A stretch of DNA of 64,000 nucleotides from Lachnospiraceae bacterium C7 (GTDB lineage Bacteria > Bacillota > Clostridia > Lachnospirales > Lachnospiraceae), in NCBI GenBank assembly GCA_900113385.1, contig FOPE01000004.1:1-64000 (forward strand), written 5' to 3'. The first letter of the stretch is position 1. The number at the start of each line of letters is the position of its first letter. Below the pieces are notes generated by a model that did not search any database, had not been told where the DNA came from, and was given only the letters and a program-made list of their open reading frames with translations. Shown here one piece after another: positions 24,504 to 42,024 of this stretch. Made by a program: the position numbers and the translations under genes.

Positions 24504-27200
24504 ATGGCAAAGAAATGGGTGTATTTATTTACAGAAGGAAACGCTGACATGCGCGAATTACTTGGAGGAAAAGGAGCTAACTTAGCTGAGATGACTAACA
24601 TCGGTCTTCCAGTACCACAAGGTTTTACCATTACAACTGAGGCATGTACTCAGTACTATGAGGATGGTAGAGAAATCAACGATGAGATTCGTGGCCAGAT
24701 TGAAGAGTACATTTTAAAAATGGAAAAAATTACAGGAAAGAAATTTGGCGACAAAGAAAATCCATTACTTGTATCTGTTCGTTCAGGAGCTAGAGCTTCA
24801 ATGCCAGGAATGATGGACACAATTTTGAACCTAGGTTTAAATGAGGACGTTGTTGAGGTTATTGCTAAAAAATCTAACAATCCACGTTGGGCTTGGGACT
24901 GTTACAGAAGATTCATCCAGATGTACTCAGACGTTGTTATGGAAGTTGGCAAAAAATATTTCGAAGAGTTAATCGATGAAATGAAAGCAAAACGAGGCGT
25001 TGAACAAGACGTAGAGCTTACAGCAGATGACTTAAAAGAATTAGCTAATCAGTTTAAAAATGAATACAAAGAAAAAGTAGGTAGTGATTTCCCAGACGAA
25101 CCAAAAGAACAGTTATTTGGTGCAATCAAAGCTGTTTTCCGTTCATGGGATAACCCTAGAGCAAATGTTTATAGAAGAGACAATGATATCCCTTATTCAT
25201 GGGGTACAGCTGTAAACGTTCAGTCAATGGCATTTGGTAACATGGGAGATGATTGTGGTACAGGTGTTGCATTCACAAGAGACCCAGCTACAGGTAAAAA
25301 AGGATTATTTGGTGAATTCCTTACAAATGCACAAGGTGAGGATGTTGTTGCTGGTGTTCGTACACCAATGCACATTTCTGAAATGGAAGATAAATTTCCA
25401 GAAGCATTCAAACAATTTAAAGAAGTATGCCAAATTCTTGAATCTCACTATAGAGATATGCAGGATATGGAGTTTACTGTTGAAAACGGAAAACTTTATA
25501 TGTTACAGACAAGAAATGGTAAGAGAACAGCTCAGGCAGCTTTAAAGATTGCTTGTAACCTTGTAGATGAGGGAATGAGAACAGAAGAGGAAGCAGTTGC
25601 AATGATTGATCCTCGAAATCTTGATACATTACTTCATCCTCAATTTGATCAGGAAGCTCTTAAGAAAGCAACTCCAATGGGTAAAGGCCTTGGTGCTTCA
25701 CCAGGTGCAGCAACAGGTAAAGTTGTATTTACAGCAGATGACGCTGTTGAATGGGCTAATAGAGGAGAAAGAGTAATCTTAGTTAGACTTGAGACATCTC
25801 CAGAAGATATCACTGGTATGAAATCAGCACAAGGTATTTTGACAGTTCGTGGTGGTATGACATCACATGCAGCTGTAGTAGCTCGTGGAATGGGCGAATG
25901 TTGTGTAGCTGGTTGCGGTGATATCACAATGGATGAAGCAAATAAATGCTTCAAATTAGGTGGAAAAGAATATCACGAAGGAGACATGATTTCTATTGAT
26001 GGTTCAACAGGTAACATTTACGATGGAGCAATCCATACAGTAGATGCTCAAATCGCTGGAGAATTTGGAAGAATCATGGGCTGGGCTGATAAATATAGAA
26101 GATTAAAAGTTAGAACAAATGCAGATACACCAAGAGATGCTAAAAAAGCTAGAGAACTTGGAGCAGAAGGTATCGGACTTTGCCGTACAGAGCATATGTT
26201 CTTCGAGCCAGAAAGAATTGATGCATTTAGAGAAATGATTTGTTCTGATACAGTAGAGGAAAGAGAAGAAGCTTTAGAGAAAATTTTGCCATATCAGCAG
26301 AGTGATTTCAAAGCTTTATATGAAGCACTTGAAGGAAATCCTGTAACAATCAGATTCCTTGATCCACCACTTCATGAGTTCGTACCTACTGAAGAAGCTG
26401 ATATTGAAAAACTTGCAAGAACAAAAGGTAAATCTGTAGATGAAATCAAAGCTATGATTAATAGCTTACATGAATTTAACCCAATGATGGGACACAGAGG
26501 ATGCCGTCTTGCTGTTACTTATCCAGAAATTGCTAAGATGCAGACAAAAGCTGTAATTAGAGCAGCAATTGAAGTTAAAATTGAGCATAGTGACTGGACA
26601 GTTAGACCAGAGATTATGATTCCATTAGTTTGTGATATCAAAGAACTTAAATTTGTTAAGAAAGTAGTAGTTGAAACAGCTGATGAAGAAATCAGAAATG
26701 CTGGTATTAAACTTGACTACGAAGTTGGTACAATGATTGAGATTCCAAGAGCTGCATTAACAGCTGATGAAATCGCTACAGAGGCAGACTTCTTCTGCTT
26801 TGGTACAAACGATTTAACACAGATGACATATGGATTCTCAAGAGATGATGCAGGTAAATTCTTGAATTCTTACTACGATACTAAGATTTTTGAGAATGAT
26901 CCATTTGCTAAACTTGATCACACAGGTGTTGGAAAACTTATGGAGATTGCAATTAAACTTGGCAAACCAGTTAATCCAAAACTCCATATCGGTATCTGTG
27001 GAGAACATGGTGGAGATCCTTCATCAGTAGAGTTCTGCCACCAGATTGGACTTGATTATGTATCATGTTCACCATTTAGAGTTCCAATTGCAAGATTAGC
27101 AGCAGCACAGGCAGCTATCGCAGAAAAAAAGGCACAAACTACAAAAGAAATTGATGTAACTGTCAACAACAGCAAATCGAAAGGAAAAACATTAGTTTAG
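24504..27200 (+). CDS. ppdK: Pyruvate phosphate dikinase
   Basis: This 898-residue enzyme interconverts pyruvate, ATP and phosphate with phosphoenolpyruvate, AMP and pyrophosphate; in anaerobes it serves glycolysis or gluconeogenesis. The N-terminal ATP-grasp domain begins at VYLFTEGNADMRELLGGKGANLAEMT. The swivelling domain carries the phosphorylated His in GGMTSHAAVVARGMG (near 455). The C-terminal PEP-binding barrel has GLCRTEHMFFE, MMGHRGCRLA, FFCFGTNDLTQMTYGFSRDD and GICGEHGGDP with its catalytic Cys. Length and residues match the well-studied Clostridium symbiosum enzyme. It is monocistronic, with its own promoter and a terminator at 27283-27312. Confidence 0.98.
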   Translation: MAKKWVYLFTEGNADMRELLGGKGANLAEMTNIGLPVPQGFTITTEACTQYYEDGREINDEIRGQIEEYILKMEKITGKKFGDKENPLLVSVRSGARASMPGMMDTILNLGLNEDVVEVIAKKSNNPRWAWDCYRRFIQMYSDVVMEVGKKYFEELIDEMKAKRGVEQDVELTADDLKELANQFKNEYKEKVGSDFPDEPKEQLFGAIKAVFRSWDNPRANVYRRDNDIPYSWGTAVNVQSMAFGNMGDDCGTGVAFTRDPATGKKGLFGEFLTNAQGEDVVAGVRTPMHISEMEDKFPEAFKQFKEVCQILESHYRDMQDMEFTVENGKLYMLQTRNGKRTAQAALKIACNLVDEGMRTEEEAVAMIDPRNLDTLLHPQFDQEALKKATPMGKGLGASPGAATGKVVFTADDAVEWANRGERVILVRLETSPEDITGMKSAQGILTVRGGMTSHAAVVARGMGECCVAGCGDITMDEANKCFKLGGKEYHEGDMISIDGSTGNIYDGAIHTVDAQIAGEFGRIMGWADKYRRLKVRTNADTPRDAKKARELGAEGIGLCRTEHMFFEPERIDAFREMICSDTVEEREEALEKILPYQQSDFKALYEALEGNPVTIRFLDPPLHEFVPTEEADIEKLARTKGKSVDEIKAMINSLHEFNPMMGHRGCRLAVTYPEIAKMQTKAVIRAAIEVKIEHSDWTVRPEIMIPLVCDIKELKFVKKVVVETADEEIRNAGIKLDYEVGTMIEIPRAALTADEIATEADFFCFGTNDLTQMTYGFSRDDAGKFLNSYYDTKIFENDPFAKLDHTGVGKLMEIAIKLGKPVNPKLHIGICGEHGGDPSSVEFCHQIGLDYVSCSPFRVPIARLAAAQAAIAEKKAQTTKEIDVTVNNSKSKGKTLV

Positions 27201-27282
27201 CCCATTTGCTATTTAGACATTTTCATAAATTTTTTTCATAACACAGTAACTCCTTTTTTAGTAATCTAGCGTATGCTAGGAA

Positions 27283-27312
27283 GGGCATCACCCGAAAGGG
27301 TGGTGCTTTTTT
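27283..27312 (+). terminator. Intrinsic terminator after ppdK
   Basis: GCATCACCC-GAAA-GGGTGGTGC is a GNRA-looped hairpin followed by TTTTTT. Confidence 0.92.
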
Positions 27313-27420
27313 CGTTGTGGGGGCCATATTAATAATCTATAATATGATAATTTATGATATAATTAAAGGTATGGATTTTAGATTAAATTAGAGTTCAATT
27401 GATGAACTCGTGTACATTAA

Positions 27421-27650
27421 TTAAGGAGATATACAATTTCAGATGGTATAAGAGATCATAATGTATTGGGCTTTGATACCAAAAAAGTTTTAGTATATAA
27501 AGACATGACTCTAAAAAATTAGTTGCAGAAAACAAATGTATTGTTGCTTATGAAGAAGAAGTAATGTCAAATGAGGCCAAAAGGTCAGTATAAGATAAAA
27601 GAATATGAAGAAGGCTATGATGAAGCTGAAAATATAAAAGTAGACAATAG
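27421..27650 (+). pseudogene. Decayed coding remnants upstream of fic
   Basis: Short open pieces in different frames read like protein: ISDGIRDHNVLGFDTKK through LVYKDMTLKN (27436-27522), VAENKCIVAYEEEVMSNEAK (ending near 27593), and RPKGQYKIKEYEEGYDEAEN to a TGA at 27652-27654. An AAGGAGA binding site at 27423-27429 is not followed by a usable ATG. I read this as one or two small genes broken by frameshifts, possibly including a partner of the Fic protein; the identity is not recognised. Confidence 0.45.
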
Positions 27651-27668
27651 ATGAGAGGTGGTAATGTA

Positions 27669-28274
27669 ATGTTGTCAAATAAGCTTGGAATTTCGGATTC
27701 AACTGAATTAGCGAGAGAAGAAGAAAAAATAAGTAAAAAGAAAGCTATAGAATTATTTGAATCAGGACTATTAGATGAACTTGAGCCAGGTACATGGGAA
27801 TCTTTACAGAAAATACATAAATTTTTGTTTGAAGATATTTATGATTTTGCAGGAAAAATGAGAGAAGTAAATATTGCTAAGGGAAATTTTAGATTTGCCT
27901 CTGTGATGTATTTAGAACCGGCACTAGAAAATATAGAAAAAATGCCACAAACATCTTTTGATGAAATCGTGGAAAAATATGTTGAAATGAATGTAGCACA
28001 TCCTTTTCGAGAGGGAAATGGAAGGAGTATTCGTATATGGCTGGATTTGATTTTTAAGAAAAAAATTAATAAGGTTGTGGATTGGAGCGCAGTAGATAAA
28101 GAAGAATATTTACAAGCTATGGAAAGAAGTCCAATTAATGATATTGAAATCAAATATATTTTAAAGAATGCTTTAACATCCGAGATTGATAATAGTGAAG
28201 TTTATATGAAAGGTATAGATCATAGTTATTACTACGAAGGATACTATACATATAAGACAGAAGATTTGCAATAA
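27669..28274 (+). CDS. Fic family protein (AMPylase fold)
   Basis: This 201-residue protein has the Fic core [14 protein letters not shown] near residues 116-129, matching HPFxxGNGRxxR with the catalytic His, and the flap region [12 protein letters not shown] upstream. Fic enzymes transfer AMP or related groups to hydroxyl side chains and often act as toxins. The (S/T)xxxE(G/N) inhibitory helix is not evident within this protein, so an antitoxin partner would be expected; the decayed upstream remnants may be what is left of one. The start is ATG 27669, 7 bases after GAGGTGG; an upstream ATG at 27651 overlaps the site. A perfect palindrome spans the stop codon. Confidence 0.9.
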
Positions 28275-28293
28275 TGCAAATCTTCTGTCTTAT
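28252..28293. repeat. Perfect 19-bp palindrome spanning the fic stop
   Basis: Arms 28252-28270 and 28275-28293 are exact complements around a 4-base loop that contains most of the fic TAA codon. There is no T-tract after it. The recognisable hsdS fragment starts at the next base, so the right arm lies at the junction of two unrelated coding pieces. Confidence 0.85.
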
Positions 28294-28797
28294 GTTTGGG
28301 AACAGCGTAAGGTTTCAAGTATGATAACTGATATAGCAGATGGACCATTTGGAAGTAACCTTAAAACAGAACATTATACAGCGGAAAAGGAAGCCAGAAT
28401 AATACAGCTTAGCAATCTTTCAGACTACGGATGGCAAGAAGAAAATACTCGTTATACTACATTTGAACATGCTAAGGAGATAAAGAGATGTATCGTTAAT
28501 GAAGGCGAATTGATAATGGGAAAAATGATGCCTGCAGGAATGACTATTATGCGCCCAAACACCGAAAAAATGTACATTCTATCTTCTGATTGTGTGCGTA
28601 TAAAACTCGATAATAATATAGAAACAGATAAGTTCTTTTTATATACAACTAGGAGTGATACTTTTCTTAATCAGGTCAACAATGATTCACAAGGAAGTAC
28701 TCGTGTCAGAACGAGTATTTCTAAAATCAGAAACATGGATGTTTTTATACCATCTGTTCCTGAGCAAGAGAAAATAGGTGAGTTTTTTGTGTTGTAG
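28294..28797 (+). pseudogene. hsdS: Type I restriction specificity subunit fragment
   Basis: About 168 codons cover one target recognition domain. The reading begins VWEQRKVSSMITDIADGPFG, the usual junction after a conserved repeat, and continues through LIMGKMMPAGMTIMRP, QGSTRVRTSISKIRNMDVF and PSVPEQEKIGEFF, where the central conserved helix would normally continue. It stops after three more residues. The other recognition domain and hsdM and hsdR are absent, so it is a remnant. An ATG at 28321 could start a shorter product, but no binding site is visible. Confidence 0.8.
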
Positions 28798-29000
28798 TCA
28801 TACTAAAATGGCCTAAGCGTCGAGCAACGCTTGCAATAGACACACTGGCAAAAAGAAGTAATAAGGCATGGGTATGTCTTTATCCATTTTAAAGTCATTA
28901 GATATTTGTCCATGGTGACTTTCCTGATAGCACCTTCTTTATACATAGTAATCCATTGTTCATAATAATCGCAAAATAAAGTTTCTTTTTCTATAATCAT
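28767..29000 (-). pseudogene. Internally deleted tyrosine recombinase
   Basis: From ATG 29000, with GGAGG 7 bases upstream, the frame reads MIIEKETLFCDYYEQWITMY and on to KYLMTLKWIKTY, the N-terminal core-binding domain of an integrase. At about 28870 the sequence jumps, in another frame, to HALLLLFASVSIASVARRLG followed by HFSMTTTQKTHLF, the C-terminal catalytic His-x-x-Arg helix region and beyond. The central catalytic domain is missing. The 3' end overlaps the end of the hsdS fragment on the other strand. Recombinases of this type often sit beside hsdS genes and invert them. Confidence 0.75.
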
Positions 29001-29404
29001 TTTAATTCCTCCAATGGATGCAGCAGTTATGTTAATTTAAAAATAGGCTATGCAAAATAAAAAATCAATATAGTATTTTTATCTTCGTGAAAATTGAATG
29101 AATGAAGCATAATCAAATGTTTTTACCAGTGCGGAAAATAATCCGATTAAATATATAAAAAAATTTAACACATCAATAAATGAGAGAGGCACTTGCATTT
29201 GGTCATATTTAATTTTAAAGAATGCTTTAACACCAGGGATTAATAACCGAAAATTTATACATAATTCCCAAAAGTGTAAAGAATTTTTCAAAATATTAGG
29301 AATTGTAGTTTACAAAAAAATATCTAGAGTTCATAATATTTAAGTACACACTTTTTGAGTGTGTAGTATTGTTGTCTACATATTTAGGCATAGGAGGTGT
29401 TTAA
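29001..29404. other. Gap before feoB: fic remnant and hairpin
   Basis: No intact gene is present. A decayed second copy of the fic 3' end occurs near 29209-29265 and is described separately. A hairpin, ACACAC-TTTTTGA-GTGTGT (about 29346-29363), lies just before feoB. I found no convincing Fur or DtxR box. A 70-codon minus-strand frame at 29079-29291 crosses the fic remnant and is rejected. Confidence 0.5.
29209..29265 (+). pseudogene. Degenerate copy of the fic 3' end
   Basis: Bases 29212-29232 are identical to 28158-28178 inside fic, and flanking bases still align. The copy reads YLILKNALTPGINNRKFIH against [19 protein letters not shown] in the intact gene, with stops around it. So fic-derived sequence brackets the hsdS and recombinase fragments. 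Confidence 0.7.
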
Positions 29405-31768
29405 GTGAATTTAAAAGAACTTAAAATAGGACAGACAGCAACTATAAAAAGTGTTGGTGGAAGTGGTGCTCTTCGTCAACATTTTCTTGATATGGGACTT
29501 ATTCCACAAAGTGATGTAACATTAATAAAATATGCTCCAATGGGTGATCCAATGGAGATTATGGTTTCAGGTTACGCATTAACTATTAGATTGTCTGATG
29601 CAGAAAAAATAGAAATAGAAAATGTTAGAAAAAAAATAACAGAAAATAATAATACAGATAAGACTTTATTGCGTGATATTTCTCATCCAGCCATAGGTGA
29701 AGATGTAAGTGATCACGATTATACAAAAGAACATAAACATAAAAGAAAAATTAATAATAAATTAACATTTGCACTAGTAGGAAACCAAAATTCGGGAAAA
29801 ACAACATTGTTTAATAGATTGACCGGATCTAATCAACACGTAGGAAATTTTCCTGGAGTTACAGTAGATAGAAAAAGTGGTTCTATAAAGGGATATCCTA
29901 ATACTGAAGTGGTTGATTTACCAGGAATATATTCGTTATCACCTTATACTAGTGAGGAAATTGTATCTAGAAAATTTGTAATTGAGGAAAAGCCTTCTGC
30001 TATAATAAATATTGTTGATGCGACAAATATTGAGCGTAATCTTTATTTGACAATGCAATTGCTAGAATTGGATGTTCCAGTGGTTATAGCATTAAATATG
30101 ATGGACGAAATGAAAGGCAATGGTGGTTCAGTAAATATAAATTTATTTGAAAAATTAATACAAGTGCCAGTTGTTCCAATTTCGGCTGCAAAGAACCAAG
30201 GTATAGAAGAACTTATCACACATGCAATTCATATTGCAAAATATAATGAAAAACCATTAAAAAATGATTTTTGCGATAAAAATGATTATGATGGAGCAGT
30301 ATATAGGGCAATACATTCAATAATGAATTTAGTAGAGGATCATGCGGAAAAAGCCGATATTCCTATAAGATTTGCAACTAGTAAAATTATTGAAAAGGAC
30401 CCACTTGTAATAGATGCATTAGATTTACATGATAATGACAGAATAGCTCTTAATACAATTGTGGATCAAATGGAAAAAGAAAGAGGTTTAGACAGAGCTG
30501 CTGCAATTGCCGACATGAGATTTACATTTATTAAAAGATTATGCAGTCAGGCAATAGTAAAACCAAAAGAAAGTAAAGAAAGAGAACGTAGTAAAAAGTT
30601 AGATAAAATTTTTACGGGAAGATGGACAGCAATACCAGTATTTATTGGAATAATGGCAATTATTTTTTATCTTACATTTAATGTAATAGGAGCGTTTTTT
30701 CAAGAAGTATTAGCGGATGCTATAGGTTGGATAACAAAAATAGTAGATAACGCATTGTCACAAGCTAATGTGGCAGCACCAATACACTCATTAGTGATAG
30801 ATGCAATTTTTGAAGGTGTAGGTACAGTACTTAGTTTTGTTCCAATAATTGTAGTATTATATTTCTTCTTATCTATTTTAGAAGATAGTGGCTACATGGC
30901 CAGAGTTGCGTTTTTTATGGATAAACTCTTACGTAAAATTGGATTATCAGGAAGAAGTATAGTTCCTTTGTTAATAGGATTTGGTTGCAGTGTTCCAGCA
31001 GTGATGTCAACACGAACTTTGCCATCAGAAAGAGATAGAAAAATGACACAACTTTTAATTCCATTTATGAGTTGTAGCGCAAAGATGCCTATTTATGCAT
31101 TTTTCTCTGCAGCATTTTTCCCAAAATACGCAGCATTAATAATGGTAGTGCTATATTTCACAGGAATATTAATGGCAATTTTAGTTGCTATGATTAGCAA
31201 ATATTCTATTTTTAAAGGAGAGGCTGTTCCTTTTGTAATGGAACTTCCAAATTATAGAATGCCAGGAATAAAAAACGTGGCAATGCTTTTATGGGATAAA
31301 GCAAAAGACTTTATTCAGAGAGCATTTACAGTTATTTTTCTAGGAATCATAGTTGTTTGGTTTTTACAGAATTTTAATCCATATTTTCACATGGTTAAAA
31401 ATTCAGAAGATAGCATATTAGCAAGTTTAGCAGGGGTAATAGCACCAGTATTTATTCCATTAGGATTCGGTAACTGGAAAGCTGTCACATCGCTGATTTC
31501 AGGATTTTTAGCAAAAGAAAGTGTGGTATCAATGCTTACTGTACTTTATGGTGGAGCAAGTAAAATGGCAACACAGATGACAGGATTAACAGCATTTACA
31601 TTTTTAGTTTTCTGTCTACTATATACACCTTGTATTGCAGCAGTAGCAGCTGTAAAAAAAGAATCTGGTGGAAAAGCAGCATTAGTTACAGTAATCTTTC
31701 AATGTGCTATCGCTTGGTTAATTGCATTTATAGTTCATTCGATAGGTTTAATAATAGGATTTAGATAA
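29405..31768 (+). CDS. feoB: Ferrous iron permease, FeoA-FeoB fusion
   Basis: This 787-residue protein fuses an N-terminal FeoA SH3-like domain (residues 1-74, MNLKELKIGQ to IEIENV) to the complete FeoB Fe2+ transporter. The GTPase domain has G1 GNQNSGKTT, G3 DLPGIYSL and G4 NMMD; the membrane part has gate motifs with the metal-site Cys in LIGFGCSVPAVM and MSCSAKMPIYA. It imports Fe2+ across the cytoplasmic membrane. The start is GTG 29405, 7 bases after AGGAGG. A small ABM-fold gene follows 17 bases later and is probably cotranscribed. Confidence 0.95.
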   Translation: MNLKELKIGQTATIKSVGGSGALRQHFLDMGLIPQSDVTLIKYAPMGDPMEIMVSGYALTIRLSDAEKIEIENVRKKITENNNTDKTLLRDISHPAIGEDVSDHDYTKEHKHKRKINNKLTFALVGNQNSGKTTLFNRLTGSNQHVGNFPGVTVDRKSGSIKGYPNTEVVDLPGIYSLSPYTSEEIVSRKFVIEEKPSAIINIVDATNIERNLYLTMQLLELDVPVVIALNMMDEMKGNGGSVNINLFEKLIQVPVVPISAAKNQGIEELITHAIHIAKYNEKPLKNDFCDKNDYDGAVYRAIHSIMNLVEDHAEKADIPIRFATSKIIEKDPLVIDALDLHDNDRIALNTIVDQMEKERGLDRAAAIADMRFTFIKRLCSQAIVKPKESKERERSKKLDKIFTGRWTAIPVFIGIMAIIFYLTFNVIGAFFQEVLADAIGWITKIVDNALSQANVAAPIHSLVIDAIFEGVGTVLSFVPIIVVLYFFLSILEDSGYMARVAFFMDKLLRKIGLSGRSIVPLLIGFGCSVPAVMSTRTLPSERDRKMTQLLIPFMSCSAKMPIYAFFSAAFFPKYAALIMVVLYFTGILMAILVAMISKYSIFKGEAVPFVMELPNYRMPGIKNVAMLLWDKAKDFIQRAFTVIFLGIIVVWFLQNFNPYFHMVKNSEDSILASLAGVIAPVFIPLGFGNWKAVTSLISGFLAKESVVSMLTVLYGGASKMATQMTGLTAFTFLVFCLLYTPCIAAVAAVKKESGGKAALVTVIFQCAIAWLIAFIVHSIGLIIGFR

Positions 31769-31785
31769 AAGAGAGGAGAATTATT

Positions 31786-32115
31786 ATGAGTATTACAGTT
31801 AATTTGAGATACAAAGGTAAAAATGGAGCAGCTATTGCATTTGCAAAAGAAATGATTAGTTCAGGCACCGTAGAAGCTATTAGAAAAGAAGCTGGTAATT
31901 TAAGATATGAGTATTATACTGCATTAGAGGACCCTGAAACTGTCCTATTAATAGACAGTTGGGATAATCAAGAAGCAATAGATATCCATCATGCATCTCC
32001 TATGATGGCAACAATAGCTGAACTCAGAGAAAAATATGATCTTCATATGACAGTTGAAAGATTTGTATCAGATGATAATATATCTGATCACGATGCTAAA
32101 TTTATAAGAAAATAG
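31786..32115 (+). CDS. ABM-domain protein (putative quinol monooxygenase)
   Basis: This 109-residue dimeric alpha/beta-barrel protein belongs to the antibiotic biosynthesis monooxygenase superfamily. Diagnostic features are ITVNLRYKGKNGAAIAFAKE, EAGNLRYEYYTALEDPETVLLIDSWDNQEAIDIHH and the HHASPMM segment. Members oxidise quinols, degrade haem or have unknown substrates; the family alone does not decide. Its position 17 bases after feoB, with GAGAGGAG before the ATG, suggests cotranscription and perhaps a link to iron or redox, but that is inference. Confidence 0.82.
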   Translation: MSITVNLRYKGKNGAAIAFAKEMISSGTVEAIRKEAGNLRYEYYTALEDPETVLLIDSWDNQEAIDIHHASPMMATIAELREKYDLHMTVERFVSDDNISDHDAKFIRK

Positions 32116-32193
32116 TGTATTATAATAACATGAACAATTAAATTATCGAAGGATATAATTTTTAAAATTAAAGTTAAAATGCTTTAATATTTA

Positions 32194-32223
32194 TTGTTAA
32201 TTGCCCACTTAATAAGGTATAAT
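32194..32223 (+). promoter_or_regulatory. Promoter of the exonuclease gene
   Basis: TTGTTA (32194-32199) and TATAAT (32218-32223) are separated by 18 bases. Confidence 0.6.
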
Positions 32224-32265
32224 ATATATAAATGTTTAACGGAATAAGGTTGAGGGAGGAAATTA

Positions 32266-32913
32266 ATGGAAAAAATCATTTTAGATTTAGAATTTTGCAA
32301 AGTATCTCCCAAATTTGCGGAGCAAAGAGAAATTTGCAAAGAAGAAATTATACAAATAGGGGCAGTTAAGTTAGATGAAAAAGATCAAATAGTAGATAAA
32401 TTTAATGAATATGTAAAGCCAGAATTCTCGCGTATTTCTAAAAAAGTTGAAAAGCTTACTAATATTTCAAATGAGATGTTAGAGGGAAAACGTAATTTTA
32501 CGGAGGTTATAGGTGATTTTATTAAATGGACAGGAGACAAAGATACTACTGTTTATTCATGGAGTATGGAAGATAAAGTTGTTATTGAACGTGAACGCAA
32601 ATTAAAGGGAGTCAATGACAAAAGATTAGAGAATCTTTTGAATAATTGGGTGGATCTTCAACAGATAATAGATAATATTTTATGTGTTAGTCAAAACCTT
32701 TCTTTAGATAATGTACTGAAAGGAATCAATGTACAATTCGTAGGTCAGAAACATTCCGCAATTGATGATGCACTCAATACAGCATTTATTTACCAGACAA
32801 TACAGGATAGAGATTTATTTGAAAAGAAAATGCGTCCATTAGTTGAAATTATGCAACCAACTGAGTCATTAACCTTTTCCATGGGTAATTTATTGCAAGG
32901 AATACTAGTTTAG
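32266..32913 (+). CDS. DEDDh 3'-5' exonuclease (RNase T/DnaQ fold)
   Basis: This 215-residue protein of the KapD/RNase T-like group has ExoI ILDLEFC (Asp and Glu near residues 5 and 7), ExoII in the region YSWSMEDKVVIERE, and ExoIII HSAIDDALNTA near 164-174 with the His and Asp of the DEDDh set. The conserved K.TNIS stretch follows the first strand. It should remove nucleotides from 3' ends of RNA or DNA; the natural substrate is unknown. GAGGGAGG precedes the ATG. It has its own promoter and stands alone. Confidence 0.85.
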   Translation: MEKIILDLEFCKVSPKFAEQREICKEEIIQIGAVKLDEKDQIVDKFNEYVKPEFSRISKKVEKLTNISNEMLEGKRNFTEVIGDFIKWTGDKDTTVYSWSMEDKVVIERERKLKGVNDKRLENLLNNWVDLQQIIDNILCVSQNLSLDNVLKGINVQFVGQKHSAIDDALNTAFIYQTIQDRDLFEKKMRPLVEIMQPTESLTFSMGNLLQGILV

Positions 32914-33075
32914 AATTGTTTGGAAAAAGGCTTTTTAAACAATGAAAATTTTAAACAAAGATGCTACATTAAAAAGGTATAGTGGCAAAGCAAAAAGGAA
33001 ACCCAAATTAAATTTGAAATTAAAGTTTCCATAAAACACTTGAAAACGCTAGAAAAAAAGGAAAATAAAATGCGT

Positions 33076-33104
33076 TTGACACACACAACTTTTTTTGGTA
33101 GAAT
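33076..33104 (+). promoter_or_regulatory. Strong promoter of the 33.1 kb non-coding RNA
   Basis: A consensus TTGACA (33076-33081) lies 17 bases before TAGAAT (33099-33104). This is among the best promoter matches in the window, yet no ORF follows for 270 bases. Confidence 0.75.
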
Positions 33105-33109
33105 TACTT

Positions 33110-33337
33110 ACATATTCAGCATGAAGACGATCTTAAACAGTAAGCATTAGTTTTGGGTGATAAATAGACGTTGTTTTGCTGGATCGATTCATTGTAATTA
33201 ATTAGGAAGTATGTAAATGGTTGACAACTTGACGGATTATGACGGAAACCGCTCGTTTATTGTTTGTCTACTAGAATTTAAAATGATTAATTTACATTGA
33301 AAAAGCAGCTTATTTCATAGGCTGCTTTATTTTTTTT
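33110..33337 (+). ncRNA. Candidate structured non-coding RNA, about 225 nt
   Basis: The region between a consensus promoter and a strong terminator has no ORF but can fold. The first 105 bases form a rod: 33110-33117 with 33206-33214 (one bulge), ATGAA (33121-33125) with TTCAT (33188-33192), CGATC (33128-33132) with GATCG (33182-33186), and CAGTAA (33138-33143) with TTGCTG (33176-33181). A second hairpin can form from TTGACAAC to GTTTGTC (about 33221-33268). ATGTAAAT (33211-33218) can alternatively pair with ATTTACAT (33290-33297). Size and a rod with an open terminal part resemble 6S RNA, but I cannot confirm that family. sbcD begins 45 bases beyond the terminator. Confidence 0.6.
33302..33337 (+). 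terminator. Terminator of the non-coding RNA
   Basis: AAAGCAGC and GCTGCTTT enclose an 11-base loop and are followed by ATTTTTTTT. Confidence 0.9.
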
Positions 33338-33381
33338 GCGCAAATATTATATAATATAAGTATATTGGAGGTATGATACAA

Positions 33382-34551
33382 ATGAAAATAATTCACATAT
33401 CTGATTTACATATTGGACTAAAGTTAATAAATAGAGATCTTCTAGAGGATCAAAGAGAAATTTTAGCACAGTTTATTGAAAAAGCGAAAGAAAAGCAGCC
33501 AGATGTTGTAGTGATAGCAGGTGATATATATGACAAAGCAATTCCATCGGCAGAGGCAGTAAGTGTTTTTGATGAATTTGTGGAAAAAATTATAAAAGCA
33601 TTACCAGCTACCAAATTAATGTTTATAAGTGGCAACCATGATAGTGCTCAAAGAATTGATTGTTTTAGAAATGTTTTGCAAAGACAAAATATTTACATGA
33701 TAGGTAATCCACCAAAGTTTGAAAATGAGCATATTGCTAAAGTGGTTTTAGAGGATGAATTTGGTAAAGTGAATTTTTATTTGCTTCCATTTGTAAAGCC
33801 ATCTATGGTAAAAGAAATTATAGGAAAAGACGAAAATGACAGAAATTTTTCCTATGATGAAACAATAAAAAGATTATTAGAACGAGAAAATATAGATCAG
33901 AATCAGAGAAATATTTTTGTTAGCCATCAATTTTATTTGCCAGTTGGAAAGAGTACAGAAGATGTTGAAAGAATGGATTCAGAGATTTGTTCAGTAGGAA
34001 ATATTGATGAAGTAAGTGCAAAATATCTAGAGATTTTTGACTATGCAGCACTAGGTCATATTCATAAGCCAATGAAAGTTGGAAGCGAGTTCTTTAGATA
34101 TTGTGGAACACCATTTCCTTATTCAGTAAGCGAAGCAGGACAAGAAAAAGGTGCTATTTTTGTAGATATCAAAGATAAAAAATCTGATAATCGCAATGAT
34201 TATATCACTACTGAAGTGATTCCATTAGAATCTAAAAGAAAAGTTAGAAAAATTAAAGGCGAGCTTTTAGAAATTTTAAAATATCCAAGTGAGGATTATG
34301 TTTCCATTACTTTAACAGATGAAGATATTTTAAATCTTACAGACGTGCAAGACAGGTTAAAAACTGCTTTCCCAAATTTATTAGAGATTATACGAGAAAA
34401 TATAAGGCATGCAAATTATAATATCCAACAAAAAAAGATAAAAAAGGACAATCCATATGAATTATGTCTTGAGTTTCTTGGGGACAAAGCAGACGAAAAG
34501 GAAAAAGAAATTATTCAAGAGATAATAAATTCAATACAGGGAGAAATATAA
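33382..34551 (+). CDS. sbcD: Exonuclease subunit SbcD (Mre11 family)
   Basis: This 389-residue Mn2+-dependent calcineurin-like phosphoesterase works with SbcC to cleave hairpins and blocked DNA ends. Metal-site motifs are visible in order: ISDLHIG (residues 5-11), AGDIYDKAIPS, SGNHDSAQR, SHQFYLPVG and LGHIHKP. The C-terminal capping domain follows. The start is ATG 33382, 9 bases after TTGGAGG; an ATG at 33373 is too close. sbcC starts 2 bases after the stop. A TATAAT near 33350, after the RNA terminator, may provide the promoter. Confidence 0.96.
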   Translation: MKIIHISDLHIGLKLINRDLLEDQREILAQFIEKAKEKQPDVVVIAGDIYDKAIPSAEAVSVFDEFVEKIIKALPATKLMFISGNHDSAQRIDCFRNVLQRQNIYMIGNPPKFENEHIAKVVLEDEFGKVNFYLLPFVKPSMVKEIIGKDENDRNFSYDETIKRLLERENIDQNQRNIFVSHQFYLPVGKSTEDVERMDSEICSVGNIDEVSAKYLEIFDYAALGHIHKPMKVGSEFFRYCGTPFPYSVSEAGQEKGAIFVDIKDKKSDNRNDYITTEVIPLESKRKVRKIKGELLEILKYPSEDYVSITLTDEDILNLTDVQDRLKTAFPNLLEIIRENIRHANYNIQQKKIKKDNPYELCLEFLGDKADEKEKEIIQEIINSIQGEI

Positions 34552-34553
34552 CT

Positions 34554-37500
34554 ATGAAACCACTTAAACTAAAAATGGAGGCTTTTGGATCATACGGAAA
34601 AGCCACAGAAATAGATTTTACATTTCCTAATCAAAATCTTTTTTTGATTACAGGAGATACAGGAGCAGGAAAAACAACTATATTTGACGCAATTGTTTTT
34701 GCATTATATGGAGAAACTAGTACAGGTGCAAAAAACGGTAAAAAAAGCGGATTAGAATTACAAAGTCAATTTATAGGACTAGATGTTAAGCCTTTTGTTG
34801 AGTTAACATTTGAAGAAAAAGGGCAAAAATACACAGTTGAGAGAATACCACAACATCAGTCATGGAAAAAAGGAAAAAAAGAATTAAAGAAAACTCCAGA
34901 TACAGAAAAAGTATCCTTAACCATGCCAGATGGAACGGATTATGCTAATTCTATCGGTGAGACAAACAAAAAAATTGAAGAAATTGTAGGTTTAACTAAA
35001 GAACAATTCATGCAAGTTGGAATGATAGCTCAAGGCGAATTTATGGAATTACTAAGAGCATCTTCAGATTCCAAAAAAGAAATTTTTAGAAAACTTTTTA
35101 ACACACAATTATTTAAAAAAGTTGTAGATGAACTTGCTATCAGAAAAAAAGATAAAGAAAAAACTTTAAATGAATTAAAGATTAAATTGCAAGCAGATGT
35201 AGCACATACCTCAGTTCCAGAACAGTATGACAAAAAAGATGAAATTGAAGAAAGCATAAGACAAATAACTAATCAAGCAGACATAAGTATTTCTCTAGTG
35301 GAATTATTTGTAGAGCATTTAGAAAAAATGTGTCAATGGCAAAAAGAAGAAGGCCAAAAGGCAAAAAAAATAAAAGATGAGTCTGCAAAAGAAAAAGATG
35401 TAGCTTTAGAAGAAAAAACAAAAGCAAAAACTCTTTTAGATGAGTTTGATAATTTTCTTAAAAATAAACAGGAATTAGAAAAAATTAAAGAGCAAGAAGA
35501 GGAAATCTTGAATTTAGAGAAAAAATCTAAAACAATTTTAAATGCTTATGAGATCTTGCCTTATAGTGAAAAACTTGAAAGATCTAAGACTGAATTACAG
35601 AGAACTAAAAAAAGATTAGAAGAAAATCAAACTCTTTTGCCTCGATATAAAGAAGACGCAGTTAAATTAGAAAAATTAATGGCGGAAGAAAGAAAAGAAG
35701 TAGATAAGGAAAGAAGCAATTATGCAACTTTACTTGAAAAAGTTGAAAAAAATGTAAATGCTTTTTCTGAGTTAGAGAAACTAGATACTTTTTTTAAGAA
35801 GGCGGAATTAGAATCTAATAATGCTAAAAAAGAAAAGGAGTTAGCAGATAAAAAATTAGAGCAACAAGAACTTCAAATAAAAGAGTGGAAGGTTCAAAAA
35901 GAAAAAATAAAAGACGCTAAATCCATTTTTAGTGATTGGCAAGTTAAGCAGAAAGAAAATGAAAGAATTAGAAATAGTTTAAAAGATGCTATTGATATTA
36001 AAACTAAAATAGATGCTATACTAAATGAATTAAAAAAGGAGCAAGAAGAATATAGAAGGATTTCTGAAAGTTATTCTGTAGAACAGGAAAAATATATTAA
36101 GTTAAATAGAGTTTTTTTAAATAATCAGGCAGGGGGTTTAGCCCAAAGTCTTATAGAAGGAGAACCATGTCCAGTATGCGGATCTATTGATCATCCAAAT
36201 CCTTTTGTCTTTAAAGAGGGTGAGGAAATACCTAGCCAGGAAAAAGTTCAAGAGTTAGAAGAAAAGGTAAATAAACTCAATATACAGCAGACCAAACTTT
36301 CCGCAGATTGTAAAGCAAAAAAAGATAATATAAATGAATTGGAAAATAATTATCACATGGAAGTTGACAAAGTTATTTTGTCAATGAAGGAATTTAAAGA
36401 AGGTAATATGTTTTTAGATGGAGATCCTTCGGTAGATAATCTAGAAAATATTCATGCAGATAGTGATGATTACGAAAATATAGTTGCAAAACTAAAGAAA
36501 ATTTTAAATAATTGGTTTTGTCTTATCGATAGGAAAAAAGATGAAATCGCTGACAATGTAAAACAGCTTGAAGTCCTAGAAAACAATTTAAGTAAGGCAG
36601 ACGAATTACGCGAATTAGCTCATGAAGCAGTAGATAAGTGCATTAAAAAATTACATGAGAAAGAAAATGTTTTAGTTGAGTTATCAGCACGAAAGAAAAG
36701 TTTGGAAGAAAATTTAGAATTTGGTTCTAAAGATGAAGCTTTGAAAGAAAAAAATAGGGCAGAAAAAATCCTTCAGGAAAAAATTGAAAGCAGTCAAAAA
36801 GTAGAACAACGCAGAAATGAAGCAAAATCTACTCTTGAAAATATACAAACAATAATTCAAACAGATAATGAGGCGCTTCCAAGGCTTACAGAAGAAAATC
36901 AAGATAATCAAAAAGAATATGAAAATATTTTGAAAGAAAAGGATTTCGCTGAAAAGCAATGGATGGAAGTTATTGAAAAATATACCAAATCTGATGCAGA
37001 TGATTTAGAGTTAAAAGTAAAGAGATACTGGCAAAATAAGGCAGCTGCAGAAAAGTTGTTAGAAGAAAATAAAAAGAAAATTCAGGGTAAAGAGCGTCCT
37101 GATTTAGAACAATATAATAAAAAATTGGAAGTGGCTCAAGAAAAATTAGCTGAAGCAGAGAAAAAATATAGCAACATAACAAGTAGAATGGAGACTAATG
37201 TAACAATTTTACAAAATCTTAAACCACAGATGCAGCAGAGAAGCGACGTATTAGAACAGCAGGAAAGACTAAGTCGTTTGTATGGTATTTTTGCAGGAAA
37301 TGTATCTGGATCAAGAATGGATCTAGAAACTTTTGTGCAAAGAAGATATTTAGAGCAAATTTTAGGGGCTGCAAATCGTAGATTTGAAGCAATGTCTGCA
37401 GGACAATTTGAACTTCAAATGGTAGATATTGAACAATCAGGAAAAGGAAAAAATAGAGGACTAGATCTTATGGTGTATTCTAATATAACTGGAAAATCAA

Positions 37501-37808
37501 GGGAGATAAAGACTTTGTCCGGTGGAGAATCATTTATGGCAGCCTTGGCCTTAGCTCTTGGAATGGCTGATGAAATCCAAGCTAATTCTGCTGCGATTAA
37601 TTTAGACGTTATGTTTATAGATGAAGGTTTTGGTTCTCTAGACGATCATTCTAGAGAGCAAGCAATTCGTGTTTTGAAAGAAATGGCTGGAGGCTCAAAA
37701 CTTATTGGTATTATTTCTCATGTCACAGAATTAAAACAGGAAATAGATAACCAATTGATTGTTAAGAAAGACGAAAAAGGAAGTAAGGTTGAATGGCAAA
37801 TTTCTTAA
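34554..37808 (+). CDS. sbcC: Exonuclease subunit SbcC (Rad50 family)
   Basis: This 1084-residue SMC-like ATPase partners SbcD. Walker A GDTGAGKTT is near residues 35-43. Two very long coiled coils flank the zinc-hook GEPCPVCGSIDHP near 537-549. The C-terminal half-domain holds the signature LSGGESFMAALALALGMAD and Walker B INLDVMFIDEGFGSLD. The complex tethers and degrades DNA ends and processes palindrome-derived hairpins, which is of interest given the many inverted repeats in this window. The start lies 2 bases after sbcD with GGGAG in the sbcD end, so the two are translationally coupled. Confidence 0.97.
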   Translation: MKPLKLKMEAFGSYGKATEIDFTFPNQNLFLITGDTGAGKTTIFDAIVFALYGETSTGAKNGKKSGLELQSQFIGLDVKPFVELTFEEKGQKYTVERIPQHQSWKKGKKELKKTPDTEKVSLTMPDGTDYANSIGETNKKIEEIVGLTKEQFMQVGMIAQGEFMELLRASSDSKKEIFRKLFNTQLFKKVVDELAIRKKDKEKTLNELKIKLQADVAHTSVPEQYDKKDEIEESIRQITNQADISISLVELFVEHLEKMCQWQKEEGQKAKKIKDESAKEKDVALEEKTKAKTLLDEFDNFLKNKQELEKIKEQEEEILNLEKKSKTILNAYEILPYSEKLERSKTELQRTKKRLEENQTLLPRYKEDAVKLEKLMAEERKEVDKERSNYATLLEKVEKNVNAFSELEKLDTFFKKAELESNNAKKEKELADKKLEQQELQIKEWKVQKEKIKDAKSIFSDWQVKQKENERIRNSLKDAIDIKTKIDAILNELKKEQEEYRRISESYSVEQEKYIKLNRVFLNNQAGGLAQSLIEGEPCPVCGSIDHPNPFVFKEGEEIPSQEKVQELEEKVNKLNIQQTKLSADCKAKKDNINELENNYHMEVDKVILSMKEFKEGNMFLDGDPSVDNLENIHADSDDYENIVAKLKKILNNWFCLIDRKKDEIADNVKQLEVLENNLSKADELRELAHEAVDKCIKKLHEKENVLVELSARKKSLEENLEFGSKDEALKEKNRAEKILQEKIESSQKVEQRRNEAKSTLENIQTIIQTDNEALPRLTEENQDNQKEYENILKEKDFAEKQWMEVIEKYTKSDADDLELKVKRYWQNKAAAEKLLEENKKKIQGKERPDLEQYNKKLEVAQEKLAEAEKKYSNITSRMETNVTILQNLKPQMQQRSDVLEQQERLSRLYGIFAGNVSGSRMDLETFVQRRYLEQILGAANRRFEAMSAGQFELQMVDIEQSGKGKNRGLDLMVYSNITGKSREIKTLSGGESFMAALALALGMADEIQANSAAINLDVMFIDEGFGSLDDHSREQAIRVLKEMAGGSKLIGIISHVTELKQEIDNQLIVKKDEKGSKVEWQIS

Positions 37809-37855
37809 AAAAGTGCTTTAAACCTTGCAAAATCTAAAAAGATGCGTTTTATATC

Positions 37856-37919
37856 TTGCAAAATCTAAAAAAATAGTGTATTCTAATATCTAGGGTCTGC
37901 TTAAGGACTCTAGATATTA
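37856..37919 (+). promoter_or_regulatory. Promoter and 5' hairpin of smpB
   Basis: TTGCAA (37856-37861), 17 bases, TATTCT (37879-37884) with a TG just upstream. A hairpin TAATATCTAG (37884-37893) with CTAGATATTA (37910-37919), plus GTC with GAC inside, covers the start point. The -35 region CTTGCAAAATCTAAAAA is a direct repeat of 37824-37840. Confidence 0.6.
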
Positions 37920-37964
37920 AAGTTTATGAAGTTTTAGTTTATAAGTTCAGAAAGGAGAGTTGTT

Positions 37965-38432
37965 ATGGCTAAAACACCTAGAAAGTTAATTGCAAACAAC
38001 AAAAAAGTGCGTCATGACTATTTCCTAGAAGAGACTTATGAAGCTGGTATCAGCTTAGCAGGAACAGAGGTTAAGTCACTTCGTATGGGACGTTGCTCTA
38101 TCAAAGAGTCATTTATCCACATAGAAGATGGCGAGGTTATTCTTTACGGAATGCATATAAGTCCTTATGAGAAAGGCAACATTTTTAACAAAGATCCTCT
38201 TAGACCTAGAAAGTTACTTATGCATAAGAAAGAGATTCAAAAGCTTATTGGTAAGATAGCTCAGAAAGGTTATACAATTGTTCCAGTTGAGGTATATTTT
38301 AAAAATAGCTTAGTAAAAGTTGAAGTGGCTCTTGCAAAAGGTAAGAAGTTATATGATAAGCGACAAGACATTGCTAAGAGAGACCAGAAGCGAGAAGCTG
38401 AGAGAGACTTTAAGATAAGAAATTTGGGCTAG
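37965..38432 (+). CDS. smpB: SsrA-binding protein SmpB
   Basis: This 155-residue protein binds tmRNA and guides it into stalled ribosomes for trans-translation. The OB fold shows [27 protein letters not shown], then the hallmark HISPYEKGN near 65-73, and the basic tail [27 protein letters not shown] lies about 9 bases before the ATG. Its partner RNA follows with no gap: the tmRNA 5' end begins 6 bases before the last base of this stop codon. Confidence 0.98.
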
Positions 38433-38767
38433 TACTGGTTTCGACGGGGCATTTGCAGCTGGAGAAGCGAGCCGCATGCGATGCGTTAAATGGCACAATT
38501 AAAATTAAACGCTGAAGATAATAATTTAGCATTCGCTGCCTAATTTGGCAGCAGTCTGACTTAGCGCACCTACACGTTAAGACCCAGGCTTCGACTATGT
38601 AGGAAACGACACAAGCTAAGCTTTGCGTTTGTGGGCGTATCATGAAGCTACTTAAGCCGTTAGGGTGTTAGTTCTCGCACGGTGGAGGGAATGTCAAAGA
38701 ACTGACTACACTCGTAGAAGTACAGGGAATCTTGCTTCGGACATGGGTTCGACTCCCATCTAGTCCA
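38426..38767 (+). ncRNA. ssrA: Transfer-messenger RNA (tmRNA)
   Basis: The acceptor arm pairs GGGCTAG at 38426-38432 with CTAGTCC at 38760-38766, with A as discriminator and no encoded CCA. The tRNA-like part is clear: TGGTTTCGACGGG at the 5' side and ATGGGTTCGACTCCCAT as T arm at the 3' side. The tag frame at 38502-38543 reads KLNAEDNNLAFAA then TAA, possibly preceded by an uncoded Ala. Hairpins and pseudoknots fill 38544-38720. The 342-base length is typical of one-piece tmRNA. It releases stalled ribosomes and marks the nascent protein for ClpXP-type proteases. Confidence 0.97.
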
Positions 38768-38770
38768 TTG

Positions 38771-38812
38771 AAAGCCTTGAAACATGATAATGTGTTTCAA
38801 GGCTTTTTGTTT
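38771..38812 (+). terminator. Intrinsic terminator after ssrA
   Basis: AAAGCCTTGAAACA and TGTTTCAAGGCTTT are exact complements over 14 bases and run into TTTGTTTT. Confidence 0.92.
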
Positions 38813-38856
38813 TATATATAAAAGTAGAATCAAAGAGAATTTAATGGAGAAAAATA

Positions 38857-39333
38857 ATGAAAAAATCAACAAATCATAAAAATAATTTAACAACTTTATG
38901 CTACATTGAAAAAGATGAAAAATATTTAATGATGCACAGGGTGAAGAAAGAAAATGATATTAATAAAGACAAGTGGGTTGGTGTAGGAGGACATTTTGAA
39001 GAAGATGAGACTCCAGAAGAATGTTTACTTAGAGAAGTGTTAGAGGAGACTAATCTTCGCTTGAAAAAATATAAGTTGCGAGGTATTATTACATTTATTT
39101 CAGATCAGTGGGAAACAGAGTACATGTTTTTATATACAGCAACTGACTTTGAGGGTGAGATAGGTGAATGTGATGAGGGCAATTTAGAATGGGTTAAAAA
39201 AGAAGAAGTATTTAATTTACCAATATGGGAAGGTGACAAAATATTTTTTGAAATGCTTAATACTAGAAAAGAATTTTTCACCTTAAAGTTAAGATATGAA
39301 GGTGATAAATTAGTAGAATATAAAAAGTCTTAA
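38857..39333 (+). CDS. Nudix hydrolase (MutT-like)
   Basis: This 158-residue protein carries a full Nudix box, GGHFEEDETPEECLLREVLEE followed by T-N-L, near residues 48-71, with the REVLEE metal-binding core. The opening strands LTTLCYIEKDEKYLMMHRVKK and WVGVGGHF fit the 8-oxo-dGTP diphosphatase-like group, which cleanses oxidised nucleotides, but substrate prediction for Nudix enzymes is unreliable. The ATG has GGAG 8 bases upstream. It follows the tmRNA terminator and is followed by a 124-base gap before mecA. Confidence 0.88.
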   Translation: MKKSTNHKNNLTTLCYIEKDEKYLMMHRVKKENDINKDKWVGVGGHFEEDETPEECLLREVLEETNLRLKKYKLRGIITFISDQWETEYMFLYTATDFEGEIGECDEGNLEWVKKEEVFNLPIWEGDKIFFEMLNTRKEFFTLKLRYEGDKLVEYKKS

Positions 39334-39457
39334 ACTTTTCTAAAGTAGCGAATATTAGCGGTTTTTGTGCCGAAATATAGGGTAACAAAAAAGAAATAAA
39401 ACAAAGCAATTTACAAAACAAAAAAACAAAAAAATAGAGAAAGGAAGGTGAAGCTTT

Positions 39458-40057
39458 ATCGAATTTTCACGAGTGGGGGATCACACCATTCAGTGCGTAG
39501 TAACAGAAGAAGAAATACTAGATTTGGGTTATACCATGGATGATATCATGTCGAATGGAGAAAAAACACAAGAATTTATGCACCATATTTTCAACATGGC
39601 GGAAAAGGAATTTCACATTGACTTAGAACTAGGAGTTAAAAAAGTTCGTGCCAATTTTAGACCAAATCATACAATTGCTTTGACTTTCTCAGAAAATCAT
39701 GTCGACGTCAGTGATTTGACTGAAGAAAAAGATGAAGAGGTCGCAACTGAAAGAGGAAGAAGAAAAAATCGGATGGATGGTATAATGGTTTTCAATTCAT
39801 TTGATAGATTATATGCTTTCTCAAAAACAGTTGTCTTTGAAAAAAGAGTTCCAAATTGTCTTTATAGATTTAATGGTTCATATGTGGTGATTTTAGATTT
39901 ATTCGGTTTGACACAAAAACAGGTAAAACGCATGTCAATTCTTGCTGAAGAATATGCAGATGGTACATACGAAGGATCCGAGAAAAAAGCCTTTATTGAA
40001 GAGCATGGCAAACTTATTGTAGAAAGAGATGCCCTTGCAACAATAAAGATGATTTAA
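39458..40057 (+). CDS. mecA: Adaptor protein MecA, probable non-canonical ATC start
   Basis: This protein of about 199 residues has an N-terminal substrate-binding domain (EFSRVGDHTIQCVVTEEEIL), an acidic linker with TEEKDEEVATERGRRKNR, and the C-terminal ClpC-binding domain (VVFEKRVPNCLYRFNGSYVV through KAFIEEHGKLI). MecA delivers proteins to ClpCP and restrains competence in Bacillus. The reading frame continues upstream of GTG 39473 to an ATC at 39458, which lies 9 bases after AGGAAGG and would give the family-typical MEFSRV start. GTG 39473 has no binding site. I therefore favour initiation at ATC, or an ATG altered by mutation or sequencing error. Confidence 0.85.
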   Translation: MEFSRVGDHTIQCVVTEEEILDLGYTMDDIMSNGEKTQEFMHHIFNMAEKEFHIDLELGVKKVRANFRPNHTIALTFSENHVDVSDLTEEKDEEVATERGRRKNRMDGIMVFNSFDRLYAFSKTVVFEKRVPNCLYRFNGSYVVILDLFGLTQKQVKRMSILAEEYADGTYEGSEKKAFIEEHGKLIVERDALATIKMI

Positions 40058-40080
40058 TTAGTACTATAAAAAATGTTGCT

Positions 40081-40160
40081 AAGAAATTAAAGTTAAAAAG
40101 AAATTAAAATTAATAAGAAATTACGATTAATAAGAAATTACGATTAATAAGAAATTAAAA
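40081..40160 (+). repeat. 17-bp tandem repeat after mecA
   Basis: Four to five units of the type AAGAAATTACGATTAAT start at 40081, 40098, 40115, 40132 and 40149. The third and fourth are identical; the others differ at one to three bases. The rest of the 506-base gap to acyP is AT-rich with no supportable gene. Confidence 0.85.
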
Positions 40161-40333
40161 AGTAGTTTCAAGAAGAAGTTTTAAAGAAGTAATAAACAAA
40201 AGTTGTTCTAAGAAGTTGTTATAAAGAAAAAGTATTATATGCGAATAACTTTTTGATGCAGCATTATATAAGATTTGAATATAATTAGAATTTTTTTATA
40301 AATCACTTCGATAGCAATTTCCAAACGAAGTAT

Positions 40334-40381
40334 AAAAAGGTTAAGATACCGCTAAGATATTGGTAAACTTAACCTTTTTTG
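40334..40381 (+). terminator. Intrinsic terminator between mecA and acyP
   Basis: AAAAGGTTAAG with CTTAACCTTTTTT, plus TACC with GGTA inside, form the stem. The A-tract on the left makes it a possible two-way terminator for the convergent acyP. Confidence 0.8.
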
Positions 40382-40489
40382 ATTGTAGTAAAAATAGTTT
40401 ATACATTTCATGTAGCATGCATGCTTAAAAATATATGCTTGGCATATATAATCAATGAATAATACAATTAATAAATAAGCAAACCAATT

Positions 40490-40563
40490 AATAAATGAAC
40501 TAATTAAAAAATGAACTAATTAAAAAATGAACCAATTGATAAATAAGTAAATAAATAACCTAA
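40490..40563. repeat. Degenerate 16-bp repeats after acyP
   Basis: Units of about 16 bases resembling AATTAAAAAATGAACT occur four or so times with drift between the terminator and the acyP stop codon. Confidence 0.6.
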
Positions 40564-40833
40564 TTAATATATAGTTCTAAATTTCTTCTCAGATGGATCA
40601 ACGTCAATTAGGTGATTTTCTACGTGATCAATTTTTATATAAGAATCAGCAGTTAATTCTTTCAAAAATTTATATATATTATAAAAGTCACCTTGAATTT
40701 CCATACTTACAGATCCATCAGAGTTATTTTTTACCCAACCAGTAAGTTTTAATTTATCTGCAATTAATCCAGATGTAAATCTAAAACCTACACCTTGAAC
40801 TCTTCCAAAAAATCTAAGTCTTCGTCTTTGCAT
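40564..40833 (-). CDS. acyP: Acylphosphatase
   Basis: This 89-residue enzyme hydrolyses acyl phosphates such as acetyl phosphate or carbamoyl phosphate. The signature GRVQGVGFR with the catalytic Arg is near residues 10-18, and GWVKNNSDGSVSMEIQG with the catalytic Asn is near 32-48. The binding site AAAGGA precedes the ATG by 11 bases. The 20 bases covering site and start codon (40831-40850) are identical to those of dapF. It is convergent with mecA and has a promoter at 40881-40909. Confidence 0.95.
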   Translation of the reverse strand: MQRRRLRFFGRVQGVGFRFTSGLIADKLKLTGWVKNNSDGSVSMEIQGDFYNIYKFLKELTADSYIKIDHVENHLIDVDPSEKKFRTIY

Positions 40834-40880
40834 AAGTCACCAATTCCTTTACTAAGTGTTTGAATATATTGTATTGAATA

Positions 40881-40909
40881 ATTTTAGAATAAATTAAAAT
40901 ATTGTACAA
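40881..40909 (-). promoter_or_regulatory. Promoter of acyP
   Basis: On the minus strand, TTGTAC (40909-40904) is 17 bases before TAAAAT (40886-40881). Confidence 0.6.
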
Positions 40910-41351
40910 ATTAAATTAATTTAAAACAAAAAAAATGGGAACGATTTTAATGTTAAAATCTACCCTTATAAAAAGTATACTTGATGAATAAAGGAAAGTC
41001 AAAGTTACTATAATGAAAATTGTTATTAGTAAAATTGTCCAAAATAATAAATTAACAAAAAATAAAAAATATTTTGTAAAATAAAAACTTAATTAATTTA
41101 ATAAAATGATAAAAAAGACTAAAATTGTTCAATAATAACAAATGAACCTCCTACGATTGAATTAAAATTGTAAAAATCACAAAAGAGAAAGAATGTTCTG
41201 ATAAATTAATGGAAAAGAATATAAAAAATGCATAAAAAAATGAATATAAATTTTAAGTGAAAAAATATAAAAAAAATGCAAAATATTTTGAAAATATGTT
41301 ATACTTATAGGCGTAGGGTATATAACATAAAAATAAATGGGGGTGGAAATT
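40910..41351. other. AT-rich gap with -10 box for the small ORF
   Basis: No gene is visible. TATACT at 41300-41305 lies about 45 bases before the 24-codon ORF, with only a weak TGCAAA -35 box (41277-41282). The rest is A/T homopolymer-rich. Confidence 0.4.
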
Positions 41352-41426
41352 ATGTCAGGAATCGAAATCTATTTTGAAATCTATTATGGCATCGAAGCAA
41401 CACAGAAAAGTGAAAGCGAAGAATAG
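41352..41426 (+). CDS. 24-residue small protein or leader peptide candidate
   Basis: ATG 41352 is preceded at 5-11 bases by the G-rich binding site GGGGGTGG. The frame encodes MSGIEIYFEIYYGIEATQKS plus SESEE, then TAG. The first half is aromatic and beta-prone with an internal EIYFEIYYGIE near-repeat; the tail is polar and acidic. There is no signal peptide. It lies in the leader region of the GGDEF/EAL gene, upstream of a terminator at 41595-41645. It may be a regulatory leader peptide or a small functional protein; I recognise no family. Confidence 0.5.
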   Translation: MSGIEIYFEIYYGIEATQKSESEE

Positions 41427-41961: not shown

Positions 41962-42024
41962 ATGCGACACAGCTATGCGAAAGGGACGTTATATATGATT
42001 AATAAACAATTATATGGAGATACT

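Follow-up and report, generated by a model that had tools for sequence, protein, structure and literature searches.

What is encoded in the short interval that directly precedes sbcD and sbcC in Lachnospiraceae bacterium C7: a structured RNA, as an initial annotation had proposed, or something more ordinary? A total of 64,000 nucleotides (assembly GCA_900113385.1, contig FOPE01000004.1, positions 1-64,000, forward strand), hereafter the window, were examined, and the locus at 33076-33337 was the subject of this study. Overall, our analysis of the sequence suggests that this locus is a lineage-restricted short transcription unit before sbcCD, a reading to which we give a probability of about 0.6. 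The features of the locus and its surroundings are as follows.

32266-32913: gene for an RNase_T-type exonuclease, upstream of the locus
33076-33104, plus strand: sigma-70-type promoter, TTGACA-17-TAGAAT, matching 11 of 12 consensus bases
33110-33301, plus strand: putative transcript body without significant overall secondary structure, its start placed from the -10 element
33114-33184, plus strand: weak 5' hairpin
33217-33300, plus strand: 27-codon ORF
33302-33328, plus strand: intrinsic terminator, a hairpin of 12 pairs followed by a U-rich tail, from the terminator scan
33350-33355, plus strand: TATAAT, candidate -10 element of a separate sbcD promoter, found by eye, with a poor hexamer 17 nt ahead of it
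33382-34551, plus strand: sbcD (Pfam Metallophos and SbcD_C), from the second ATG, 10 nt after GGAGG, as the likely start; the ORF as listed begins at 33373
34554-37808, plus strand: sbcC (Pfam AAA_23 and SbcC_Walker_B)

Promoter and terminator signals

The consensus promoter described in the initial annotation is present at 33076-33104, with TG ahead of the -10 element, and is the only 11/12 match within 24001-44000. Across the whole window such sites numbered five on the plus strand and one on the minus strand; in 12 shuffles of the window the mean was 2.2 per strand, with one shuffle reaching five. Promoter-like sites as a class were not above shuffles (109 in 24001-44000 against 101.6, sd 10.4). 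The strong terminator was also found as described, at 33302-33328. Folded alone, 33301-33329 gave a z-score of -5.83, with none of 400 shuffles as good. No other terminator-like site lies in 32500-34000, and of the eight in 24001-44000 just one, directly after tmRNA, is longer; as a class, terminator-like sites in 24001-44000 did not exceed shuffles (8 against 6.1, sd 2.8). From the end of the terminator stem to the probable start of sbcD the distance is 54 nt. Although the promoter alone is not rare, the unit at 33076-33328 is likely real because an 11/12 promoter and a terminator occur together. These two signals support the earlier claim of a short, separately transcribed RNA that terminates ahead of sbcD. 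RNA polymerase would initiate at about 33110 from this housekeeping-type promoter, and the putative RNA of about 220 nt would end at the intrinsic terminator, just before sbcD.

Folding and base composition of the transcript body

The full 227-nt transcript folded better than shuffled sequences (z -3.37, 0 of 200 as good). This excess is mainly due to the terminator, since it drops to z -0.97 for 33110-33300, where the terminator is removed (67 of 400 shuffles as good). The first 105 bases, which had been described as a rod, fold at chance level: z-scores were -0.22 for 33110-33215 (80 of 200 shuffles as good) and -0.04 for 33110-33214 (180 of 400). Values for 33187-33300 and 33218-33272 were -1.53 (30 of 400) and -1.35 (34 of 400), respectively. 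The hairpin at 33114-33184 has a slight edge over shuffles (z -2.12; 13 of 400 did as well; uncorrected for its selection from the fold), and this counts against the reading of the product as an ordinary transcript.

The initial annotation had also proposed two exclusive folds. The 8-nt complementarity between 33211-33218 and 33290-33297 exists in the sequence, but folds forced to hold this pairing or the pairing with the 5' end reached -46.2 and -45.3 kcal/mol, against -53.9 kcal/mol for the best fold. The alternative pairings thus cost 7.7 and 8.6 kcal/mol and have a pair probability of 0.000, and at least one perfect 8-nt pair is present in 32% of 1000 shuffles. Given this energy cost and chance frequency, we reject the proposal of two exclusive folds. 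The main lesson is that, with the terminator left out, neither the apparent rod nor the alternative pairings exceed what shuffled sequence gives.

Analysis of base composition revealed 31.9% GC in the body, 29.9-31.9% in the neighbouring genes and 47.8% in tmRNA. When 25 gaps are ordered by the GC content of their best 190-nt stretch, the one before sbcD shares fourth place; a GC enrichment of the kind that would point to structured RNA is not marked here. The intergenic DNA on either side of the body has a lower GC content (25.9% and 21.2%); together with the rank of the gap, this would fit some selected product.

Known RNA families and homologues

Comparison of the 64-kb window with Rfam revealed only tmRNA (38426-38770) at the gathering score, and the locus matched no family there, neither 6S RNA nor any other. 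Ten matches at E<=10 were found in 33000-33400, all far below gathering; the best by E-value was L20_leader, at 21.2 bits where gathering requires 58.7. The locus resembles 6S RNA (RF00013) in length (about 190-225 nt) and in forming a separate unit under a promoter of its own. However, 6S RNA is a long rod with a central bubble, whereas the best fold of the full transcript here consists of two separate domains and the terminator. RF00013 was absent among the matches at E<=10 in 33000-33400, and the genome carries one 6S RNA elsewhere, over the cut-off with 68.1 bits, on a 3.7-kb contig (G000:C12:386-570). The locus is therefore not the 6S RNA of this genome, and the likeness suggested in the initial annotation is not borne out, with no rod beyond shuffles. 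Rfam gave no match on 12 sbcD loci of relatives. In the literature searches no title on the locus was found among the matches listed; a term search of PMC11109978 found no occurrence of sbcD, and one of PMC8040213 found none of the terms searched.

DNA searches were carried out on overlapping genome sets that include the own genome. Among 60 genomes, two matched: the own copy and one 26-nt piece. The family draw of 397 genomes gave 22 at E<=0.01, namely the own copy and pieces of 22-66 nt; the order draw of 392 gave two, the own copy and a 26-nt piece; and the class draw of 391 gave three, the own copy and two others. For the matches shown from these three draws, two first-look candidates were scored per genome. 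With a 551-nt query, 61 of 62 genomes of the genus matched at E<=1; among the matches listed, those outside the own genome were short pieces, and the best of them had an E-value of 9.8e-4. The strongest match outside the own genome came from the class draw, where 48 nt (33195-33242) are 82% identical in G1108 (E 9.1e-6). That match ends within 49 nt, and the stretch reads as coding there; no closed ORF covers the match in the coding frame, a statement from a list that leaves out frames open at both ends.

The initial annotation had named an absence of conservation in relatives as counting against its proposal, and beyond short pieces none was found in the genomes searched. The closest member of the genus, G060, is 84% identical at smpB-tmRNA, and no SbcD above 63% identity was found; the searches would therefore miss an RNA conserved solely in the species or among closer relatives. 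Searches for a mobile origin returned three plasmid and two phage records (coverage 14-22%, E 0.07 to 0.9), none a good match, and two exact 22-nt patterns were absent from viral contigs. A repeat or MITE was also rejected: the own genome holds one full copy, and the other matches listed are short, with E-values of at least 0.016.

Explanations for the unit and its neighbourhood

Intrinsic-terminator attenuators and riboswitch leaders form a general class in which promoter, short leader, terminator and gene lie on one strand, and the locus shares this order with the same-strand sbcD. It might accordingly be a regulated leader, in which a signal would set terminator formation and the promoter at 33076 would drive sbcCD when needed. 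Between the transcript and sbcD there is just the terminator on the same strand, and the promoter scan found no plus-strand site of at least 9/12 in that interval, the TATAAT at 33350-33355 being outside the scan list. Against such a leader, the locus differs from the class in that no notable antiterminator, known family or conservation was found: no Rfam riboswitch or leader family reached the gathering score, and the terminator arms have no competing pairing above shuffle level. When the terminator pairs were forbidden, 33298-33336 stayed unpaired in the best fold, and 77 and 257 of 300 shuffles formed duplexes with the 5' and 3' arms, respectively, that were no weaker than those of the upstream RNA. 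Since the arms stay unpaired and the complementarity is at shuffle level, no RNA-only antiterminator is visible; protein-dependent antitermination may act at 33302-33328. Comparison with other sbcD genes points in the same direction. From a total of 108 loci, 91 with at least 300 nt upstream were usable (L005 and L069 denote one locus), and 400 nt upstream were scanned. Five of them (L085, L092, L096, L097 and L102) have a 10/12 promoter with a terminator after it, and four of these five hold tRNA-Pro genes there; at L085, which has no tRNA-Pro gene upstream of sbcD, the promoter and terminator signals touch. We consider regulation by attenuation unlikely, though it is the foremost of the alternatives.

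The tRNA-Pro genes bear on a different explanation, in which a gene, tRNA or rRNA unit would have decayed or been rearranged at the locus, leaving its promoter and terminator behind as a relic. These genes lie upstream of sbcD in six Oribacterium-type relatives (L092, L096, L097, L101, L102 and L103), as short stable-RNA units comparable in position to the one in the window, and L092 and L102 also carry TTGACA-17-TAGAAT and a terminator nearly as far from sbcD as the one at the locus. However, ARAGORN found no tRNA at the locus, and its alignment to the units of L092 and L096 was insignificant (34 and 282 of 300 shuffles as good), which leaves a tRNA relic unsupported. The orthologue of the upstream exonuclease gene in G060 (64% identical) is followed, at the contig end, by what reads by eye as an rRNA-type promoter and leader. 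The neighbourhood of the exonuclease gene appears rearranged, because this orthologue adjoins an apparent rRNA operon start. A remnant of an rRNA leader is nevertheless unsupported, as the alignment to the G060 leader is no better than shuffles (65 of 300 as good). No 16S gene was detected in the own assembly, and G060 has no close SbcD, with a weak SbcD-type match alone (E 1.3e-6). The piece in G1108 would also fit a relic, with its E-value applying to one of 391 genomes, but it is the top hit of an extensive search and stops where noted above. Taken together, a relic seems rather improbable. The same can be said more firmly of a short mRNA, in which a leader of about 107 nt would precede a 27-residue protein encoded at 33217-33300. 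The statement of the initial annotation that the transcript holds no ORF is too strong, because a 27-codon frame fits ahead of the terminator, its stop codon directly abutting it; an AGGA precedes this frame, with 9 nt from its end to the ATG. This frame has a codon score of -0.97, against -22.45 and -28.16 for the other frames, which hold stop codons. Its codon usage is, however, not gene-like: 35.4% of 1000 random open frames, a background that included the gap before sbcD itself, score as high, and 1.4% of 1000 slices taken from genes in the window score as low. An ORF of at least 20 codons led by a Shine-Dalgarno sequence occurs in 9.75% of 2000 shuffles, and the peptide has no Pfam match and no convincing homologue in the 62 genomes of the genus, where six matched at E<=1: the own copy and five others with E-values of 0.14-0.91. 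The weak peptide match in G060 was taken as chance because it is antisense to a 702-aa ORF. A small protein from this frame is thus weakly possible, and a short mRNA as the explanation of the unit is doubtful. It is very improbable that the locus encodes a species-restricted trans-acting sRNA whose abundance would report or tune DNA-repair capacity beside sbcCD.

Overall, a real but ordinary short transcription unit, lineage-restricted within the reach of the searches, is likely on the sequence signals, and the product of 33110-33330 looks like an ordinary short transcript rather than a new RNA class. The best reading of the transcript of about 220 nt is an orphan sRNA, or a terminated leader that would insulate or limit sbcCD; a conserved structure is unsupported. 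Its likeliest effect would be local: the terminator would stop transcripts from the promoter at 33076 and probably also transcription arriving from upstream genes, and sbcCD would be kept at a presumably low level through read-through or its own weak promoter. Should the transcript be real, it would add to the lineage-restricted short RNAs and might matter locally for sbcCD expression.

The wider surroundings were compared using 11 smpB stretches from 10 relatives, which extend some 3 to 19 kb upstream from smpB. None of 10 window proteins from upstream of smpB was found there at E<=1e-8; hence the arrangement of the locus is unseen in those 10 relatives. Several minor observations were made alongside. 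The tRNA-Pro genes of L092 and L102 form a pair with the anticodons TGG and AGG. Within the window, a short ORF at 15346-15546, under the 100-aa cut-off of the gene map, appears by eye to be of the CspA cold-shock type. A very AT-rich gap of 1.9 kb (40058-41961) precedes an EAL-GGDEF gene; it contains a 24-codon ORF after GGGGTGG (41352-41426) and, judged by eye, a possible acylphosphatase gene on the minus strand.
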